Source: Anaerocolumna sp. (GTDB lineage Bacteria; Bacillota; Clostridia; Lachnospirales; Lachnospiraceae). From it: a DNA stretch of 39,884 bases. The notes beneath the pieces are model-generated. The model had not been told where the DNA came from. It saw nothing but the letters and a program-made list of their open reading frames with translations, and made no database searches. The position numbers were made by a program, and so were the translations under genes. This document shows, piece by piece, positions 28,381-38,698 of the stretch (positions within the stretch are counted from its first letter, which is position 1; every line of letters starts with the position of its first letter). The stretch is taken from contig JARBTX010000034.1 in NCBI GenBank assembly GCA_029239975.1, positions 1-39,884 of the forward strand. Direction: 5' to 3'.

Positions 28381-29679
28381 TCAAGTTTCTACTCCTAACT
28401 TAAGTCTTTCATTAATTTTTTTCCAATGTCTTTTTATTTGATTATGTATCTCATTATCTAAAATATCACTTTCACTAAATATTTTTTCGGCTTTATATGT
28501 GTATGTTATAAAGTTCCCATATCCCTTCTTATTCTTTTTATTACCCAAGTGTGTATATGACTTATATAGTGCTTTCTTAGCAGCAATCATGGATTTTGAA
28601 TCACGAGCAAATTGAACTGATTTAATTTTTTTATAAGCTCTACAATAATATTTAAACATACTCTTTTCACGAATTCTAATTACTTTTCCATTAAAAGAAA
28701 ATCCAAGATAGTTTATTATATTACTTTCACCAGAAATCTTACTAATGGTATCACTGCTATAAAAGAACTGTTCAGTTTTATCTATATTTAAATCTAAGTT
28801 TTTAACAAGACTTCGTATCTGATCAACCTTAATAATATGATGTTCATATTCTCGATATTGAAACTGTTCCTTATTCATTGGAATAATCATAATTATATCA
28901 TCACAATACCTTCTATAAATACCTTGCTTACTGGTAGCATAATCATTTAACATCTTATCAAATTCTATCATGTATACGTTAGCATATACGGAACTAATTG
29001 AAGAACCTTGTGGAATACCATATGTTTTATAATTACGATATAAATGACCTTTTTTAAATTCTTGAAATTCTCTTGTTAAAAAATACTTATCATAGTCACG
29101 CATATCTCGTCTTAACTTAGATTTAAATATTTCGATTTCCTTAGCTTCAACAAAAGAATATCTTGTAATATTTTTATATACTGCATATTCCGCATCATCT
29201 AGCATTTCTTTATTAGAAACAGTACATATTTTTTCTTTTAAATATTTATGATCAAGATTATCAAAAAAATTTGAAAAATCTCCAACAAAGACGAAAGCCT
29301 CTTTTGTCTTTACAAGGAATTCAAATACCTCTCTTGCAAAATGTATATTACATTTACCTTTTGAATTATTTCGATAAGCAGTAGATACATTACCAATACC
29401 TATCTGCTTACAATATGAATTATAAATATTATTCAGTTTATTCCCATAATATTGATATATAAACCTGTCAATATGTGCAGCATAATTTATATTCCGAACC
29501 TTTTTCTTCTTACCATTATCACTTTTATATTTATGAAATACAATTTGATAATGGATAAATGGATAAAATCCATGACTTTTAACCCAGTTAGGATCTTTTA
29601 TTCTATGTATATAGTGATGATAATCTTTTTTGATATCCAAATGTGTATAATATTTATTGGTAAAAATTTTCTTATTCAT
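28381..29679 (-). CDS. Reverse transcriptase, probably defence type (DRT2/UG2-like)
   Basis: A 432-residue RNA-dependent DNA polymerase. The RT motifs are in order: VFVGDFSNFFDNLDH with catalytic Asp134, YGIPQGSSISSVYANVYMIEFD (220-241) and YCDD at 258-261, followed by LGFSFNG. It lacks the maturase X and HNH domains of group II introns, lacks clear retron signatures (NAxxH, VTG) and has no variable repeat nearby, so it is not a DGR. Size, the N-terminal HGFYPFIHY region and the single-gene layout with a structured leader are most like the antiviral DRT2 (UG2) group. That assignment is from memory and not proven. TTGGAGGAAAA precedes the ATG. Confidence 0.9.
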   Translation of the reverse strand: MNKKIFTNKYYTHLDIKKDYHHYIHRIKDPNWVKSHGFYPFIHYQIVFHKYKSDNGKKKKVRNINYAAHIDRFIYQYYGNKLNNIYNSYCKQIGIGNVSTAYRNNSKGKCNIHFAREVFEFLVKTKEAFVFVGDFSNFFDNLDHKYLKEKICTVSNKEMLDDAEYAVYKNITRYSFVEAKEIEIFKSKLRRDMRDYDKYFLTREFQEFKKGHLYRNYKTYGIPQGSSISSVYANVYMIEFDKMLNDYATSKQGIYRRYCDDIIMIIPMNKEQFQYREYEHHIIKVDQIRSLVKNLDLNIDKTEQFFYSSDTISKISGESNIINYLGFSFNGKVIRIREKSMFKYYCRAYKKIKSVQFARDSKSMIAAKKALYKSYTHLGNKKNKKGYGNFITYTYKAEKIFSESDILDNEIHNQIKRHWKKINERLKLGVET

Positions 29680-30251: not shown

Positions 30252-32210
30252 TCAATTTTCACATGTAAATATACTTATACTATTCTGAACTCTTCTCATT
30301 ATTTCAATACCAATTCGTGTGCCAATGCTACCTAGCAGTTCTTCTCTTTTTTCCTTTAGAATCCCATCCTCATCTTTAGCTAAAATGTAAATATAGAAAA
30401 CCGGAAGATAATCAGAATCAAGCTGCAAAATATCTGCAATTCCACTGATGTCTTTTAAGGTACAAATCGAGCCCTTATTGTTATAGAAATAGATTGGTGA
30501 ATCTAATCCAATTGAAATACGTTTAAATAAAGTAACAGTATCATAAGTCTTAAGGTTGGTAACGATATCGTTTGTTTCCTTCCTAACAATTTCACTTACC
30601 ATCTCCCCAAAAGCTTCGATTTTCATTTCCTTACTGTATCTCGAAATAAAAGATAATACAAAACCAGAAGAATTTTTCATAGTAATGTCTAACATCCTAC
30701 GAATTAGTTCTGTGGATCTTTCCCTTAAAGATACCCCCTTTTCCTTCATGAGTAATGCTTCCAACTCGTCTTTTCGTTTCATAATCTCAAGTTTTACAGC
30801 ATCATCAATAATCTTAAAATTCTCACTTCGCTTGATTAAGGAATGATATCTCTTGCTATTACGCAACAATTCTGCTAGACGTTGTGCTAATATATAATCC
30901 CTAGAACCATCTTCGATTTCTTCATTATGATAATATTTCGTATAGTAAATTTGCCTAAGCACGGTCGTCAACCAGGAATCATTCCATTGAGAAAGTGCAT
31001 TTGCTTTGATTGCAGACTTTTTATCTCCTAATGGAAACCAAAGACCTGAGATATCAAATGGTATTAGCACTTCGTTATCACGTTGTTTCTCTATTACTGT
31101 TTCATTCAAGTATTTCATTACCAGCTCTTTTACGATTCCTTCTAGAATATAATCAGATTGGATTACTCTATGATGATAAATAATATCCTTATAGCTATTA
31201 TATCTACGCTTAACAAAGTCCTCTACCGAACTTACTGCTTTTAATGGAACACAGAAAAAAATCTCTCCATCCTTCACAATTAATTGCATATCATTAATGA
31301 TTCTGCTATATTCAATCTTTCCAGAATCTTTTCCCGAATTGATTACATCTCTTGTCGCATAATCCAAGCGGTCTCCGTCCAAACTAGAATCAATTATTCT
31401 ATGAAGATATTTGAATGCTCCATCGTCTGCAAAAATTCTTTTTACACTTTCTAGTACAAGCAACTCAAATAAATTCTCATCGTATTTCTCTTCATTTTCT
31501 GAAATTGGTACAATAATTTTACTTAAAATACCCTCGCTGATTTCATCCCCCATTTGTTCGTGTAATTTTTTATTACCCTCAAAGTATTTAGACATGATAT
31601 CGACAAATTCTTTTGCATTTTCCTTTTCACTAACTACTTTCTCTTTATATTCCATATAGACATCTTTTAGCGCAAATTCCACAATATGACTAAATGGCGG
31701 ATGTCCAATATCGTGTAGCAATGCTGCTGCACGAATCGATTGAATGAGAATTAGATGCACATTTTTATACTGATCTGGAATATTGTTGGGTATAAGAGAA
31801 TGTCTCAACCTATCTAGTTCAATCTGTGGCATCACTAACGGTAGTCTAGCACCTAGTTTTTCTGCACAAACATCTGGCTGCTGTCTTAATCTATCTAAAA
31901 TTATGGAATATTCTCTAACAAAAATATCAAAGAATTCACTTAGCATGGAATCCGTTGTATTTAATAACGATTGAAAAAACATATCGGAACAAAGTTTCAT
32001 TGTTCCAATGGAGTGTTCATATCGTTTGGTTCGATTCGTGGGAAACGTAAGATATACCGTTGAATTTTGATACACATCGTGGAGACGATTAAAACCAATC
32101 GTTGATACAATTCTTCTTTCATATTCCGTTAATGAAATCAGTCCATGAATGGAATCATTTAAATAAATACCTGTTTTCAAAGTTTTGCCTCCTGCTGTTT
32201 TTTTATCCAT
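30252..32210 (-). CDS. SAMHD1-like HD-domain phosphohydrolase
   Basis: A 652-residue HD-superfamily hydrolase. The metal and phosphate residues of SAMHD1/dGTPase-type enzymes are visible: RYEHSIGT (63-70, His66), LLHDIGHPPFSH (164-175, His166/Asp167), HEQMGDEIS (216-224) and SLDGDRLDYATRD (275-287, Asp282). The C-terminal ~250 residues are not assigned. Likely action is triphosphate removal from dNTPs. This can limit phage DNA synthesis, but housekeeping versions exist too. AGGGAGATACTTTATA precedes the ATG. Before the island arrived, this gene was next downstream of tRNA-Leu. Confidence 0.88.
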   Translation of the reverse strand: MDKKTAGGKTLKTGIYLNDSIHGLISLTEYERRIVSTIGFNRLHDVYQNSTVYLTFPTNRTKRYEHSIGTMKLCSDMFFQSLLNTTDSMLSEFFDIFVREYSIILDRLRQQPDVCAEKLGARLPLVMPQIELDRLRHSLIPNNIPDQYKNVHLILIQSIRAAALLHDIGHPPFSHIVEFALKDVYMEYKEKVVSEKENAKEFVDIMSKYFEGNKKLHEQMGDEISEGILSKIIVPISENEEKYDENLFELLVLESVKRIFADDGAFKYLHRIIDSSLDGDRLDYATRDVINSGKDSGKIEYSRIINDMQLIVKDGEIFFCVPLKAVSSVEDFVKRRYNSYKDIIYHHRVIQSDYILEGIVKELVMKYLNETVIEKQRDNEVLIPFDISGLWFPLGDKKSAIKANALSQWNDSWLTTVLRQIYYTKYYHNEEIEDGSRDYILAQRLAELLRNSKRYHSLIKRSENFKIIDDAVKLEIMKRKDELEALLMKEKGVSLRERSTELIRRMLDITMKNSSGFVLSFISRYSKEMKIEAFGEMVSEIVRKETNDIVTNLKTYDTVTLFKRISIGLDSPIYFYNNKGSICTLKDISGIADILQLDSDYLPVFYIYILAKDEDGILKEKREELLGSIGTRIGIEIMRRVQNSISIFTCEN

Positions 32211-32303: not shown

Positions 32304-32325
32304 ACTGCAGTCGACGGGACTTGAA
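32304..32325. repeat. Attachment-site repeat, distal end of the island
   Basis: A 22-bp perfect copy of the T-arm and acceptor 3' part of tRNA-Leu (begins ACTGCAGTCGACGGG), identical to 38488-38509. The rest of the tRNA is missing here, as expected for the far att site of an integrated element. Confidence 0.88.
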
Positions 32326-32476: not shown

Positions 32477-33460
32477 TCAATTAACCTTTTGGAATATTAT
32501 ATGTATTGTATATTCTTCTGAACCTACGTGAACAGCCTTTGTCAACTCCTCTAATACGGTATCAGGGTTAATATTACGTGGCAATAAAAATAATATACCT
32601 TGTTTAATATTACTATTAGTAAGATATAATAGTAATTGATTTATATAGTCATCATAGTTGTCTATATTTCTCATTTTCTTCAAAACTTTCAGTTCCACTA
32701 TAACTTTATCGTCATTTTTATTAGATATAATTAAATCAGGACTTAACCTTGAATCACGATTTATTATCGGCTCTGATTCTATATTCATCTCTATATCCAA
32801 TAAATTTATATAAGCTATAATACCATTTAAAAATTCACTCTCAGTTAATAATGATAGTTTATTATCTTCTGGATTTTTATATAAATTTCCATCATAGTTT
32901 TTTAAAAGATATTTAACTTTCTCTATAAAGTTTAGTGAATTATAATTAACATGGAAGTTTTTCTTGATATCAGTTACTAATGGTTCAATTCTCTCTATCT
33001 CTGACAAATAATATAAGTTATCGTTAATTTGATTTAGGAGTATATGTACAAATGATGTAACTGATAGAATTGCTGAGAATGCTTCACCACTATTAAAAAA
33101 CAGCCTATAATCATGTGTCGAGGTATTTCTCCACTCTTGCCTATAATTCTCAAGCAATTTTATAACTCTTTCTTTTAAAACTTTATTATCAAGTAAGTAT
33201 TTTTCAATATTATTAGGTGTTATTTTCTTATCTTCATTATTTGTAAGTGCAAAATATGCCTCCTTTAATATTCCCTCATATGCATGATTTGTTCTATAAA
33301 TGACATCCGTATAAAAATGTTTGTCATTATCTTTATCCCCCATTTCAAGCATATACTCCGCACGTTCGATATGAGTTATAACATCTTCTAATCCAACTAA
33401 TTTTTTATTTAATTCTAACGCTCTTGTAACTTGTTTTTTTATATAATTCATCGTATCCAT
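32477..33460 (-). CDS. HEPN plus PD-(D/E)XK nuclease-like protein
   Basis: A 327-residue protein of two parts. Residues about 15-150 are all helical, with AYEGILKEAYFAL and the RNA-cleaving HEPN motif Rx4H as R111-NTST-H116. Residues about 205-327 look like a PD-(D/E)XK fold: SPDLIIS (Asp242), VIVELKV (Glu256, Lys258), a following helix with YINQLLLYLT (Gln) and ILFLLPRN. Either half could be a toxic nuclease. It is the last gene before the att site. Whether it works with the SIR2-Argonaute gene or is a separate defence gene is unknown. TAAGGAGGCACAACA precedes the ATG. Confidence 0.75.
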   Translation of the reverse strand: MDTMNYIKKQVTRALELNKKLVGLEDVITHIERAEYMLEMGDKDNDKHFYTDVIYRTNHAYEGILKEAYFALTNNEDKKITPNNIEKYLLDNKVLKERVIKLLENYRQEWRNTSTHDYRLFFNSGEAFSAILSVTSFVHILLNQINDNLYYLSEIERIEPLVTDIKKNFHVNYNSLNFIEKVKYLLKNYDGNLYKNPEDNKLSLLTESEFLNGIIAYINLLDIEMNIESEPIINRDSRLSPDLIISNKNDDKVIVELKVLKKMRNIDNYDDYINQLLLYLTNSNIKQGILFLLPRNINPDTVLEELTKAVHVGSEEYTIHIIFQKVN

Positions 33461-33511: not shown

Positions 33512-33736
33512 TCATGCGAATATTTCTCCCCTTAAACAAGCTTGATTAAGAGCATAATCTAATAATTCTTGAAAGGTATAAATTCCTAAATGACCTTAAT
33601 AAAATGATTTAAAATGATTTCCATCAAACAACAAAACTTTAAGTTCTTTTCCTCTTGGTAATGATTTCAATACTTCAGATGAATAACCATTCATTGCTAT
33701 AAAAATACCTTTAGTCTCAAAAAATTTGATTATAAT
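33512..33736 (-). pseudogene. C-terminal remnant of a restriction-endonuclease-like protein
   Basis: One frame reads FFETKGIFIAMNGYSSEVLK, then LPRGKELKVLLFDGNHF, an in-frame TAA, and GIYTFQELLDYALNQACLRG with a TGA. This resembles the C-terminal end of restriction-endonuclease-like proteins that I know from defence loci (family from memory). It lacks the N-terminal part and a start, and has an internal stop, so it is dead. It lies between the SIR2-Argonaute stop and the HEPN/nuclease start. Confidence 0.55.
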
Positions 33737-33747
33737 AATATTATTAC

Positions 33748-36700
33748 TTACATAAAATATCTAAAATCATACGATTTGTCATAAAGAACAACATCCTGCT
33801 TTGCCATTTTAGATAAGGTTTTAGCAAAGTCTAATGTTACAGGTAAAACTTTATAAAAGCTGTCACCACTGTTCCAATTCATTTTCGTTAACATCATAAT
33901 TTCATTAACCAATGTTTCACCACTTGCCTTTCCCATAAATCTACGAATAAGTAATGGTGCTGGAATCCCTCTAGAATTCTTATAATAATTTTTACTTGTA
34001 CCGGCCAAATCTTCATCTTGAACAGAACCATGCGTCCATAATAAAAAGCTATATTCATCTAAAGGTATCACACTTCCTCTTTGTATAGGATAATAAGATA
34101 AGCCTTTTAACATATCCTCTGAATCAAATCTTATACACCTCCATGGTGTAAACTCTTGTATTTGCAATAGCTCAATATCATCAACACCATTTAACCCTTT
34201 TGTTATTCCTTCTATTTCTTCTTTAGTAAAAAAGGTTGTTTTATGAATTACAACCCTTTTTAAATTATAAGTTGGAATTGAGTCATCATAAAGTTTCTTC
34301 AGACTCATCATCAAACGACGAGCATCTTCACTTCTCATAAAGGGATTTTGTTGTATATACTGAGGATTCTTTATTGGCCTAAGATAAAGCCTCATTCCAT
34401 TTCCCTCGGAATCAAATAATTGGCTACAACCAATCGAAACTTTTTCTCCTTCCCTCACAGATTGAACATAGCTTAACCCTATAAAAGCAGTATTCTCGTT
34501 AAAATTTTCTGGTCTCCATAACCTTCCCACCGTCTTTGAATATATACCTGTTGAAAGTCCCCATAGGACTTTTGCAGTATCTGTATACTGTGTTGGCACT
34601 GCAGACCTTTCTTCAATAATCTGCATGATTATTCCACGTTCAGCACAATACAATTTCAATGAATCATGCAAATCAAAATACACATTATCATTTTTCAATT
34701 CTCTTAAATGCGAGAAATATGATGGTATATATATTATTAATAAATCAAAATCTGGTTTGTTTTTTTCAAATATATCAATATACTTAGATAAACCTTGAAA
34801 AAATTTATTGGGACTATTATTTTTTGCCTTTTCCCCATCATATTCCATGTATCTTAAGTTATCATCTAAAGTTGGTATATCTATATCTTTTCTAAATATT
34901 TGCTGAAACCCCATAAATTCTGGTAAAAAATCTTTTTCTGTTGTAGGAATCGCTTGCTTTTTTAGTTTTTGTAAATGGTGTATAATCTGTTGGTAATTTT
35001 GTTTAGGTGTTAGTACAGCTAATTTTATAGTATCGACTTCTATTCCATTTTTTAGCTTCTCTATTGGACCATAATTAATTAATCCTCTTAATTGATTAAT
35101 AGATTTTTTATTATTATCATCAACTGAAAAACTCATTTTAGGCTCAACGCATTGATAACATTGAATTTGAGGCCATTCGTCTTTTCTGCCATATCCACCA
35201 TAGGTATATACTAACCTGTTAAATACCAACTTTGCCCCATCTAGGCAAAACTCTAATTGTTTATTTGTTGTTATATTTTTAGTCCATTCATTAAATACCT
35301 CACTGATAGGTTTATTGTATAATTTCGATTGATATTTGTTTATAATATTTTGCTTTTCTATTGTTTTTAAATCTGATCCATTTAACTTTTCCATATATAG
35401 TGTAGGTAAAAAGGTAAGATTGATTTTCTTATTTAAGTAGGATAAGAATACTTCAATTGCATCATAAAGTTTAAGTCCATTCTCATATTTAATGCTGTTT
35501 ATATTGTAAAACTTATTTTTTCCAAAGCAATAAAATCCTTTTCTAATCATGGAAGTTTTGATTATATCATAATACATGCCGATAATAATGGACGAATCTT
35601 TCATCATCATGTAATCAGGAATTTCCATTAAAGTTATTTTACTTATCATTTTCTCTTTAAATATATCACACAAATTTACTTCGTTTCCAAATGCCCATAC
35701 TTCTCCATTATGCAATGCTGCTACAATATTGTGACCAGAACAACATTCCCTTAAATCTCTCCACTTTTGTATACTAGTTTTAAAAGTATAACACTTTGTA
35801 GGATACATTATAGATTCAAATGTATTAGACTTGACGAATCCTTTGTGTTTATTCATATTTCCAAATAAAACAGGTCTAATTTTAGTAACTTCTTTCCAAC
35901 TGCTATCTATTTCACTATAGGATTTATTTAATGTTAAATATAACCTATACATTAAATCATCAAAACTCTCAATTTCTAAAACTCCCGATAATTCATTTCG
36001 ACTGCAGGCATTTTCCATAAACAACTCAGCACGTTCACTTAATTTTGTATTTATTGGTTTGCACCATATTATCCCATATGGTAAGCTTTTCTCCTGAATA
36101 ACCAGTTTTTCTAAAATTGTCATTACTGAATTATCATTTCCGGCATAACCGACTATAACTAATCCTTTATCTCTAATTCCATGCTCGAAAATATCTCCTA
36201 TTTCTCTTTCCATCTCTTTAAGCTCATCAGATGTATTTTTTAATTTATCTATTAAATAATCTCCATGCAGTTTTATTATATTAGGGAAGCCATCGTGTAG
36301 ATTAAATCCAACGCTTTCTTTTATTGCTGATGAAATTTTTTTAATAGATAACCCAGGATTTAAAGTATATATACCAGCTTGTACAAGATCATCAAAGTTA
36401 GTTGTGGTAACAAGATCTATACGTTTTTCAGATATAATTGCACCTAAGCATAAGTAACCTGAATATGGAGTTACATCTTTAACTTTGCCTTGTATATATA
36501 GCTCTCTACTTCTTCTATCTGTATAACATTCTTCAAAATAAAATGGATACTCCTCTGGTGAATTCTGAACTGGATATGTACCCTTAGAATTAAAATAACT
36601 CTGTATTTCTGTTTGAGTAGCTTCTTTAGATAAGTCTTTGAAAGATGAAGTAGAGATCTTATTTTCTACACAATAAATTGATCGTTTAAAATCCCATACC

Positions 36701-36822
36701 ATTTGCCCTCCAGACATAATACCAGATGATATTGATGCCCCAGCACCTAAAAGCATTGCCATGCTTCCATCTGGTCTTACTGAAAATCCATTAATAAATT
36801 CACTTATTTCCATGTATCTCAC
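33748..36822 (-). CDS. SIR2-APAZ-PIWI fusion, single-chain short Argonaute (SPARSA-like)
   Basis: A 1024-residue protein from a GTG at 36822 with AAGGAGGAGATAGAT before it; the frame is open 9 codons further to an ATG with no spaced site. The SIR2 NADase half shows GAGAS (26-30), TTNFD (140-144), KLHGD with catalytic His (184-188) and GYAGND (225-230). Residues about 310-560 match the APAZ position. The MID-PIWI half runs from about 590: FDLLIIYIPSYF, GIIMQIIEERS, RPENFNENTAFIGLSYV and VVIHKTTFFTKEEIEG. The slicer Asp residues are replaced (GLS, HKTT), so the PIWI is catalytically dead, as in short Argonautes. Expected role: guide-directed sensing of foreign DNA and NAD+ depletion. Confidence 0.88.
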   Translation of the reverse strand: MRYMEISEFINGFSVRPDGSMAMLLGAGASISSGIMSGGQMVWDFKRSIYCVENKISTSSFKDLSKEATQTEIQSYFNSKGTYPVQNSPEEYPFYFEECYTDRRSRELYIQGKVKDVTPYSGYLCLGAIISEKRIDLVTTTNFDDLVQAGIYTLNPGLSIKKISSAIKESVGFNLHDGFPNIIKLHGDYLIDKLKNTSDELKEMEREIGDIFEHGIRDKGLVIVGYAGNDNSVMTILEKLVIQEKSLPYGIIWCKPINTKLSERAELFMENACSRNELSGVLEIESFDDLMYRLYLTLNKSYSEIDSSWKEVTKIRPVLFGNMNKHKGFVKSNTFESIMYPTKCYTFKTSIQKWRDLRECCSGHNIVAALHNGEVWAFGNEVNLCDIFKEKMISKITLMEIPDYMMMKDSSIIIGMYYDIIKTSMIRKGFYCFGKNKFYNINSIKYENGLKLYDAIEVFLSYLNKKINLTFLPTLYMEKLNGSDLKTIEKQNIINKYQSKLYNKPISEVFNEWTKNITTNKQLEFCLDGAKLVFNRLVYTYGGYGRKDEWPQIQCYQCVEPKMSFSVDDNNKKSINQLRGLINYGPIEKLKNGIEVDTIKLAVLTPKQNYQQIIHHLQKLKKQAIPTTEKDFLPEFMGFQQIFRKDIDIPTLDDNLRYMEYDGEKAKNNSPNKFFQGLSKYIDIFEKNKPDFDLLIIYIPSYFSHLRELKNDNVYFDLHDSLKLYCAERGIIMQIIEERSAVPTQYTDTAKVLWGLSTGIYSKTVGRLWRPENFNENTAFIGLSYVQSVREGEKVSIGCSQLFDSEGNGMRLYLRPIKNPQYIQQNPFMRSEDARRLMMSLKKLYDDSIPTYNLKRVVIHKTTFFTKEEIEGITKGLNGVDDIELLQIQEFTPWRCIRFDSEDMLKGLSYYPIQRGSVIPLDEYSFLLWTHGSVQDEDLAGTSKNYYKNSRGIPAPLLIRRFMGKASGETLVNEIMMLTKMNWNSGDSFYKVLPVTLDFAKTLSKMAKQDVVLYDKSYDFRYFM

Positions 36823-36883
36823 ATCTATCTCCTCCTTATCTCCTATCATCCTCGTATTTTAAGTAACAAGTATGTTCTGTTAA

Positions 36884-37048
36884 TCAAAATCCATTATCTA
36901 TCATATTTTGTATAATCTTAATCATATTATTCTTTTGCATATAGTTTAGTAAATAATCTCTAGGAGGACAATTACTCATATATGGTTTATCTTCAGGTCC
37001 CGTATATAAACCGCCTCCATGTCCTGTATATCTATTTCTTGTCCACAT
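36884..37048 (-). CDS. 54-residue GGGLYTGP-motif small protein
   Basis: Starts at the ATG at 37048 (MWTRNRYTGHGGGLYTGP) with GGAAAGGAATGCATTT; the frame is open to 37066. After the Gly-rich motif come DKPYMSNCPPRDYLLNYMQK and a helical end. From memory this matches a widespread small-protein family with one or more GGGxYTGP repeats and the PYxSNxPP box; its function is not known to me. It lies 61 bp upstream of the SIR2-Argonaute gene on the same strand and may be co-transcribed. The single repeat is short for the family. Confidence 0.7.
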   Translation of the reverse strand: MWTRNRYTGHGGGLYTGPEDKPYMSNCPPRDYLLNYMQKNNMIKIIQNMIDNGF

Positions 37049-37162: not shown

Positions 37163-38191
37163 ATTGAGTAGGAGATAGCTGATTAATTCAGCTATCGACC
37201 TCTCACACCACCGTGCGTACCGTTCGGTACACGGCGGTTCTTTAGTTTACACAGACTTTCGTGTAATAATCAGAAAAATAAATAAATCCTAGTGAATTTA
37301 ATGTTACATTATCTAGGCTTTTACTTAGAACTGGGCTATTGCTTGTTGTATTACCCTATCTACTACAGTTGGTATTCCTAGATTTCTCATTTTCCCATTA
37401 TCTTTGGGTATTTCTACCCTTCTCACGGGGTTCGGACGATATTTCCCATCCTTGATTGATTGAATTAGTTGCTCGTTGTTTTCTTTCAGATATTGTAGAA
37501 GCTCATCTACTCCCATCTTATCAATTCCACCGGCTCCTTTATTAGACTTTACCTTTTTGTAGGCTAGGTTCATGTTGTCTTTATCTAATATTTTCTCTAA
37601 TAATCTATGTTCGCTTGCGAACATTTCCGCCGACAAGTCTGTGTTGATGACGTTGTTTTCAGTTATCCTTGAACAAGCATACGCTTCTACATACTCTTTC
37701 CGTTCCGCGGATACCATTTGCAGATAGCCTTCATCCATCTCATTATGAAGTTTTCTGTATTTTATTTCTTCGTTAGTAACATTCATTTACTCTCATCTCC
37801 TAAAGTTCAGTCCTTCCCATATGTCGTCGACTACATATGGTACTATGACGTCTGCTGACTTCTCACGATAAATCTTATTTCAACCACGCTTCATACTTTA
37901 TGTTTCCACATGTCCGTGAGATCTCCCCAGGTAAGAACGCAATCTTTCCTTCCATCTATCTGCCACATTTACACACTGGATTTCCGAGTAGTTTGGGACT
38001 TCAGTTTGTATTGCAACTTTATCCAATCCATATATGCTGATGTGATTTCTGTTCGTCAGACCAGAAGTTTGCCTTAAGCTTCCTTCAGATTCCACGTCAC
38101 CGTGGACACCCTTGCTCTTAGCTATGTACTTGGCACTACTAACCCGTACTCGGGACTTTCACCCGTTAGATTGCGCCCATGCTGGGCGCAC
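37163..38191 (-). mobile_element. Group II intron with internal deletion
   Basis: On the minus strand the 5' end is GTGCGCCCAGCATGGGCGCA followed by AATCTAACGGGTGAAAGTCC, a typical group II start (38191). The 3' part has a domain V-like hairpin (about 37194-37240, GAACCGCCGTGTACCGAACG and its partner arm) and a domain VI-like hairpin (GATAGCTGA/TCAGCTATC), ending near CTACTCAAT (about 37163). About 1 kb remains; an intact intron is usually ~2 kb or more. It is inserted directly after a terminator hairpin. Confidence 0.82.
37325..37786 (-). pseudogene. ltrA: Truncated group II intron reverse transcriptase (LtrA N-terminus)
   Basis: The remaining 153 residues contain the RT-0/RT-1 region (RLLEKILDKDNMNLAYKKVK, KGAGGIDKMGVDELLQYL, DGKYRPNPVRRVEIPKDNGK, RNLGIPTVVDRVIQQAIAQ) and then stop. 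The YADD palm, maturase and any endonuclease domains are missing because of a deletion that joins this point to the intron 3' end. It cannot make an active enzyme. TTTAGGAGATGAGAGTAA precedes the ATG. Confidence 0.88.
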
Positions 38192-38487: not shown

Positions 38488-38509
38488 ACTGCAGTCGACG
38501 GGACTTGAA
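38488..38509. repeat. Attachment-site repeat inside the tRNA-Leu 3' end
   Basis: 22 bp covering the acceptor 3' strand and T-arm of the tRNA, identical to 32304-32325. It marks the tRNA-proximal junction of the island. Confidence 0.88.
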
Positions 38510-38574
38510 CCCGTACGGTCGCAATGACCACTAGATCCTTAGTCTAGCGCGTATGCCAATTCCGCCACGACTGC
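38490..38574 (-). tRNA. tRNA-Leu, anticodon AAG
   Basis: An 85-nt class II tRNA. The acceptor stem GCAGTCG (38574-38568) pairs with CGACTGC (38497-38491), discriminator A at 38490. The anticodon stem CTAGA/TCTAG encloses the 7-nt loop CTAAGGA, anticodon AAG. A long variable arm (TGGTCATTGCGACC) and T-arm GGGTTCAAGTCCC follow. The gene is intact despite serving as an integration site, because the island restores its 3' end. CCA is not encoded. Confidence 0.95.
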
Positions 38575-38698
38575 AAATTATTAATATGATAACTTTTGTT
38601 CTTAGGTTGTTTCCTAACGAACGAACTTTATTATATCAAAATATGTATCAAATTGCAATACCCAAACGAATTTATTTACTATCCTATTATTGGATTTG

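Follow-up and report, generated by a model that had tools for sequence, protein, structure and literature searches.

The stretch of DNA analyzed here (the window, 39,884 nucleotides, positions 1 to 39,884 of contig JARBTX010000034.1, assembly GCA_029239975.1) comes from Anaerocolumna sp., a member of the anaerobic family Lachnospiraceae, and carries on its minus strand one gene for a short prokaryotic Argonaute (pAgo) fused to SIR2 and APAZ domains, the single-chain form of the SIR2-APAZ/short pAgo systems called SPARSA. According to the list of open reading frames (ORFs), the frame at 33748-36849 is initiated by ATG and spans 1,033 codons uninterrupted by stops. A GTG at 36822 corresponds to codon 10 of this longer frame, and since a Shine-Dalgarno sequence favors position 36822, the true product is probably the protein of 1,024 amino acids (aa) with a GTG start. 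The relatives left the choice of start undecided: among those of their matches that cover the N-terminal region, the first aligned query residue ranges from 1 to 29 (longer numbering). An earlier note on this DNA had proposed a one-frame fused protein starting at 36822; the open frame confirms the fusion, and the AAGGAGG motif 8 nt upstream supports this start. Residue numbers refer to the 1,024-residue protein unless the longer numbering is stated. The gene was the sole match within its own assembly, which is 92% complete. The gene and its domains are as follows:

33748..36822, minus strand: SIR2-APAZ-MID-PIWI fused short prokaryotic Argonaute, 1,024 aa, GTG start (open frame, PADLOC, PDB SPARSA chains)
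36831..36837, minus strand: Shine-Dalgarno AAGGAGG, 8-nt spacer to the GTG start (sequence reading)
35911..36822, minus strand: SIR2 NADase-type domain, residues ~1-304, with catalytic N142 and H186 (Pfam SIR2_2, 8in8_B, conserved columns)
35179..35910, minus strand: APAZ domain, residues ~305-548 (AlphaFold2 model and Foldseek)
34504..35178, minus strand: MID domain, residues ~549-773, with H719, K723 and Q734, and with E737 and K751 (alignment to the Geobacter pAgo)
33751..34503, minus strand: PIWI domain, residues ~774-1024, with a sensor loop at ~815-828 and two Asp-free slicer motifs (alignment columns)

Domain architecture and conserved residues

The protein matched the PADLOC model for SIR2-fused class I pAgos from end to end (PDLC02420; 1,287.9 bits, residues 1-1024 against model positions 1-1010 of 1010). 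In the longer numbering, residues 569-1033 gave the top PDB match, to the pAgo of the Geobacter SPARSA complex (8in8_C, E = 2.8e-60), and residues 29-436 matched the Sir2-APAZ subunit of the same complex (8in8_B, E = 4.1e-41). These three scores place the identity of the fused protein far beyond chance. In Pfam, SIR2_2 (E 3.8e-8) was the lone family above its cut-off and no TIR domain was reported in the protein, which was also without an NCBIfam match at E 0.1 or better.

A full-length AlphaFold2 model computed from a 27-row alignment reached a mean predicted local distance difference test score (pLDDT) of 80.7 and a predicted template modeling score (pTM) of 0.67. Foldseek placed Geobacter SPARSA chains at ranks 1-7, followed by SPARDA, the long pAgo RsAgo, SPARTA and SPARHA; the entry at rank 1 (8k87) is titled 'procaryotic Ago' only, but carries the sequence of the Geobacter sulfurreducens pAgo (GsAgo). 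The APAZ region was reached only partly by sequence search, and residues 305-600 were folded separately (AlphaFold2; pLDDT 82.0, pTM 0.81). The best Foldseek match of this model was SPARSA 8jl0_A (E 1.2e-9, template modeling score 0.55 by query length), and every one of ranks 1-27 was a chain of a short-pAgo complex, SPARSA and SPARTA among them. Because of these matches, the assignment of residues ~305-548 to APAZ holds on the modeled structure. The boundary of the MID domain was transferred from GsAgo (PMC10781750). SIR2, APAZ and MID-PIWI, all named by the earlier note, were thus each confirmed by sequence or structure search.

Conservation was read from an alignment (A2) of 27 rows, consisting of the window protein, the relative L018 and 25 of 43 further loci; the remaining 18 (L036, L038, L042, L046-L050 and L052-L061) were excluded as partial, split over frames or contigs, two-gene or more distant. 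All 27 rows were also matched by PDLC02420. In the SIR2 domain, N142, F143, H186, Y226, D230 and F287 are conserved in 26 of 26 rows reaching these columns, and D144 in 25 of 26. All seven positions carry identical numbers in the Geobacter protein, in which NADase (NAD+-hydrolyzing) activity was abolished by N142A, by H186A, and by changes at F143, D144, Y226 and F287 (PMC10781750). The N-terminal NADase motifs described previously are therefore present with catalytic N142 and H186 intact.

The guide-phosphate residues are likewise retained. GsAgo H166, K170 and Q181, which are assigned roles in binding the 5' phosphate of the guide (PMC10781750, which prints both K70 and K170), align with H719, K723 and Q734 of the window protein, and these are kept in 25/25, 24/25 and 25/25 of the fused MID-PIWI rows, respectively. 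The GsAgo sensor loop (residues 260-274, PMC10781750) aligns to residues 815-828. An NP dipeptide stands near the loop end in all 25 fused rows.

The motifs in which the slicer aspartates were said to be replaced, AFIGLSYV and VVIHKTT, were located at residues 779-786 and 857-863, and on the basis of that reading we take their columns to be the probable slicer columns. Ser784 and Thr862 stand at these columns in the window protein, matching GsAgo, and Asp occurs in neither column in any of the 25 fused rows or of 15 other short pAgos. Both quoted motifs were thus found to lack Asp, the check covering two of the four tetrad positions (S784 and T862). GsAgo is reported to lack catalytic residues (PMC10781750). 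A catalytic Argonaute was also sought as a reference for the slicer columns, and was not obtained: a Pfam Piwi search of 291 genomes of the class gave two long pAgos, the motifs of which were Asp-free by eye.

Phylogeny and the guide 5'-end pocket of fused proteins

Matches to the fused protein were found in 12 of 397 family genomes; those in G264 and G136 showed gene-wide identity to L023 (Parablautia intestinalis) and L033 ('uncultured Lachnospiraceae bacterium'). In a MID-PIWI tree, from which L025 and L026 were left out with most of PIWI missing, all 25 fused rows cluster together (support 100/100), and GsAgo with four two-gene proteins forms a separate five-row group (support 98/94). By tree path, the window protein is nearest to L019, L033 and L018, and the full-length relatives closest to it, L018 and L019, share 60-63% identity with it. 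This tree separates fused rows from the two-gene group; the label S1A for the window protein comes from its architecture and the PADLOC model. At L015, a two-gene locus, the coding regions share 4 bp, and the fused layout therefore differs from it essentially by loss of the junction.

Within the MID domain, Glu737 and Lys751 are present in all 25 fused rows and in none of the 15 other short pAgos, in which the 737 column holds R, W, N or L and the 751 column T, S or N; collapsing at 90% identity leaves 20 fused and 14 other rows. Flanking residues anchor both columns: Gln734, which is invariant, at one side and a Trp common to all rows shown at the other. In GsAgo the counterparts are N184 (E737) and N195 (K751). 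N184 bonds guide base 1, and the N184A variant has no NADase activity, while N195 together with R190 reads guide base 2, and the R190A/N195A double mutant is inactive (PMC10781750). As these two contacts differ, the Geobacter guide preference is not transferable, and the placement of Glu737 and Lys751 at the base-1 and base-2 contacts predicts a different preference for the guide 5' end. The column of the third base contact, D164, is not clade-specific (fused rows 12 D and 13 N; others 9 D, 5 N and 1 T).

The 15 comparators are SIR2-, DUF4365- or SMEK-linked, some with unannotated partners, and include GsAgo; eight were chosen by hand among 30 listed plasmid rows (96 records matched). The fused sample is rich in Clostridia and also holds Bacteroidota, Melainabacteria and Spirochaetota rows, with no proteobacterial fusion, since genomes were scanned with two short peptide patterns. 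No discussion of Glu737/Lys751 was met in literature searches, which were aimed at systems and not at residues.

Genomic surroundings

The fused gene lies in an interval between a tRNA-Leu(AAG) gene (38489-38575) and an HD-domain gene (30252-32210), with the following features:

38488..38509, minus strand: 22-bp repeat at the 3' end of tRNA-Leu(AAG) (repeat comparison)
32304..32325, minus strand: second perfect copy of the 22-bp repeat (repeat comparison)
37163-38106, minus strand: group II intron RNA domains (Rfam), with a reverse-transcriptase frame of 153 codons only
36884..37048, minus strand: small ORF of 54 codons just upstream of the SPARSA gene, same strand (sequence reading)
33530-33720, minus strand: frame scrap with an in-frame stop between the SPARSA and PD-(D/E)XK-like genes, no convincing Pfam match
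32477-33460, minus strand: PD-(D/E)XK/HEPN-like gene, E = 0.00064 and 0.0074 respectively, both below the Pfam cut-off

The two repeat copies enclose the group II intron, the 54-codon ORF, the SPARSA gene, the frame scrap and the weakly matching PD-(D/E)XK/HEPN gene, with the HD-domain gene lying outside the repeat. The distance from the tRNA to the HD gene in G404 is about 0.5 kb and in G407 about 2 kb, against about 6.3 kb in the window. These differing distances indicate a variable interval, in which the SPARSA gene was probably gained; we thus consider that the fused gene was probably acquired horizontally into the interval beside tRNA-Leu. Because the interval varies among the genus members examined, it may be an insertion hot spot. 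A simple integrase-made island was considered and is not proven: no integrase was seen among interval ORFs of at least 80 aa, and the stretch directly after tRNA-Leu also adjoins the tRNA in G404, G405 and partly G407, so that the second 22-bp copy lacks the flank expected from simple integration. G406 has a piece matching the post-tRNA stretch about 30 kb away from its tRNA. A terminator-like hairpin (38227-38200) precedes the group II intron.

Neither neighbor of the fused gene behaves as a conserved partner. The 54-codon ORF was matched in two of the 397 family genomes, namely itself and one at E 8.8e-4 with 34% identity in an unrelated-looking context, and its GGGLYTGP and YMSNxPP motifs occur in none of the other loci compared; with no plasmid match and no NCBIfam family either, a role as conserved partner is unsupported. 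A promoter-like match near this ORF (37142-37114) is weak: the region holds 30 such matches, and shuffled sequence gave 27.7 on average. The PD-(D/E)XK-like gene is nearly an orphan (three of 397 family genomes including itself, the other two weak), and the viral scan returned no relative of it. One relative on a Janthinobacterium plasmid (33% identity) stands beside an IS3 transposase, and no Argonaute is annotated within 6 kb, where several hypothetical proteins are encoded. This gene is a possible uncharacterized defence gene.

Among the 23 full-length fused loci compared, the window included, no neighbor is common to all, and a conserved operon was rejected because the neighbors differ. 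The adjacent genes thus do not look like a variant of the system. The relatives stand in different contexts of a mobile or defence type: a recombinase-like protein cluster in 12 loci (verified by Pfam in two), type I restriction genes (verified for L020), a Schlafen/AlbA_2 gene (verified for L024) and a caspase-domain gene (verified for L018).

With the protein and alignment A1 as queries, viral sequence scans each gave one relative, L018 both times, and a viral scan for a two-gene pAgo gave one fragment. The fused genes of L018 (7944-11081) and L019 (7977-11063) are situated just after a serine recombinase gene, at distances of 82 and 138 bp; an amidase-type gene stands farther upstream, and one of these two loci is an IMG/VR viral contig. 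As the recombinase adjoins both and one is viral, a fused gene of this type may travel with prophages. Other loci (L004/L055, L005/L013, L006/L014, L058 and L059) hold C-terminal remnants only, with longest open pieces of about 40-150 residues, some adjoining defence-type genes; they look as if the 3' end of the fused gene were a recombination junction.

Farther away in the window, a DRT2-type defence reverse transcriptase is encoded at 28381-29679 on the minus strand (PADLOC Drt2, 435 bits; NCBIfam Drt2, 340 bits, below the cut-off of 390), with one weak match among 14 other genomes of the genus. The 321 nt upstream fold far more stably than shuffles (z = -4.28) and contain a 13-bp stem right before the start codon, and no Rfam family matched there. 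DRT2 systems are reported to use a structured non-coding RNA nearby (PMC12039810).

Proposed function and relation to known systems

Taken together, the domain profiles, the modeled fold and the analogy to Geobacter make it very probable that the gene encodes a single-chain SPARSA of clade S1A, probably acquired horizontally, in which guide-triggered NAD+ hydrolysis by SIR2 would lead to abortive infection. In the proposed mechanism, APAZ and MID-PIWI would form a catalytically dead Argonaute lobe holding a 5'-phosphorylated guide, most likely RNA, which would pair with single-stranded invader DNA. Such pairing along the guide would shift the PIWI sensor loop, the covalently attached SIR2 domain would be freed or opened, and its hydrolysis of NAD+ would cause the cell to stop growing or die. 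Guide and target type, activation, NADase output and defence are all projected here from the two-gene Geobacter system. Of the intact abortive-infection protein that had been suggested, the frame and the catalytic residues were found intact, while we infer the NADase activity and the defence role by analogy.

Several points weigh against this reading. No biochemistry or phage test of the window protein was found in the literature, and Pfam reports no Piwi domain in the protein, with PF02171 finding nothing in the whole genome. The arrangement of the domains is unsure, because the pTM of the full model is moderate and the SIR2-APAZ chains superpose poorly overall (root-mean-square deviation 14.8-17.1). 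The slicer columns are a probable assignment, drawn from the earlier reading and from the sharing of both residues with GsAgo. At the locus, the stretches examined of G405 and G406 yielded no HD gene, and the tRNA-HD pairing thus holds in two of four genus relatives. Finally, two guide-base contacts of GsAgo are altered (N184 to E737 and N195 to K751), one of them being the contact whose change to alanine abolished Geobacter activity.

This last point leads to an alternative in which the fused clade keeps the architecture and NADase output but differs in the guide or target that it reads (another 5' base, a DNA guide or an RNA target) through a pocket rebuilt around Glu737/Lys751. The strict partition of this pair between fused and other rows, also after collapsing, argues for such a change, as does the loss of NADase activity in the N184A and R190A/N195A variants affecting guide bases 1 and 2 in Geobacter. 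However, the 5'-phosphate residues are retained, the D164 column is D or N in fused and other rows alike, and the contrast was drawn from a Clostridia-rich sample and partly hand-picked comparators. Moreover, single base-contact changes besides N184 were tolerated in Geobacter (PMC10781750), and guides with 5'-U and 5'-A both activated its system (PMC10474274), so base readout may be loose. We therefore regard this alternative as possible but rather doubtful; equally tentative is the suggestion that the S1A branch loads guides with another first and second base, or of other chemistry, by which its choice of invaders would differ from that of two-gene SPARSA.

That the fused protein is a decaying or silent remnant, functionless in its host, is suggested by the copies in G283, G339 and G029, which are partial or stop-interrupted and belong to the 12 matching genomes, and by the broken frames of the group II intron upstream and the scrap downstream. 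Against this stand a full-length frame, a strong ribosome-binding site and the retention of all catalytic and guide-phosphate positions tested, and we consider decay improbable. It is very unlikely that the PD-(D/E)XK-like gene or the 54-codon ORF makes up a larger system together with the protein: both share its strand and the repeat-bounded interval, but the former is nearly confined to this genome and has a plasmid relative without an annotated Argonaute nearby, the motifs of the latter are missing from the other loci compared, and the neighbors differ among full-length fused genes.

The single-chain SPARSA reading thus preferred places the protein among known systems. The SIR2-APAZ-pAgo fusion architecture is already known, and the window protein is a distinct sequence within it; the original experiments on fused SPARSA were reportedly those of Zaremba and colleagues in 2022. 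With the fused clade S1A set (PDLC02420; the name S1A is from PMC12205087 and PMC11156904) it shares the single-chain domain order and the end-to-end profile match, and it groups with 24 other fused rows, no structural difference being seen. It resembles the two-gene SPARSA of Geobacter sulfurreducens (PDB 8in8, 8jkz and 8y80) in the SIR2 catalytic residues, the APAZ fold, the 5'-phosphate pocket and a sensor loop with NP[YF], and differs from it in being encoded by one gene of 1,024 aa instead of two (587 + 473) and in carrying Glu737 and Lys751 at the positions of Geobacter Asn184 and Asn195. Two-gene SPARSA is by definition clade S1B (PMC12205087), whereas the window has one open frame.

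SPARTA (TIR-APAZ with a short pAgo, clade S2A) has in common with the window protein APAZ, a MID-PIWI lobe and, by the literature, an NADase output, but uses TIR where the window protein has a fused SIR2. SPARDA and SPARHA (nuclease-APAZ with a short pAgo) share APAZ and MID-PIWI, but their effector is a nuclease and not an NADase-type domain. Catalytic pAgo nucleases would have the slicer Asp where S784 and T862 stand here (two motifs examined, columns assigned as above).

Published accounts of SPARSA oligomers disagree: SIR2-APAZ/Ago is described as forming no higher-order assembly (PMC10474274), target DNA as inducing tetramers (PMC12205087), and a tetrameric structure is deposited as 8y80 (Foldseek listing). 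The fused form offers a test of this disagreement, which the present model cannot decide. The closest solved structures are those of the two-gene Geobacter complex. An intact fused member is a convenient test object, as its start site is likely, its relatives form a clean set and its host belongs to an anaerobe-type family. It allows one to ask how a covalently tethered SIR2 domain switches on, and whether guide use is set by the invariant Glu/Lys pair; this pocket is the single point that merits follow-up.

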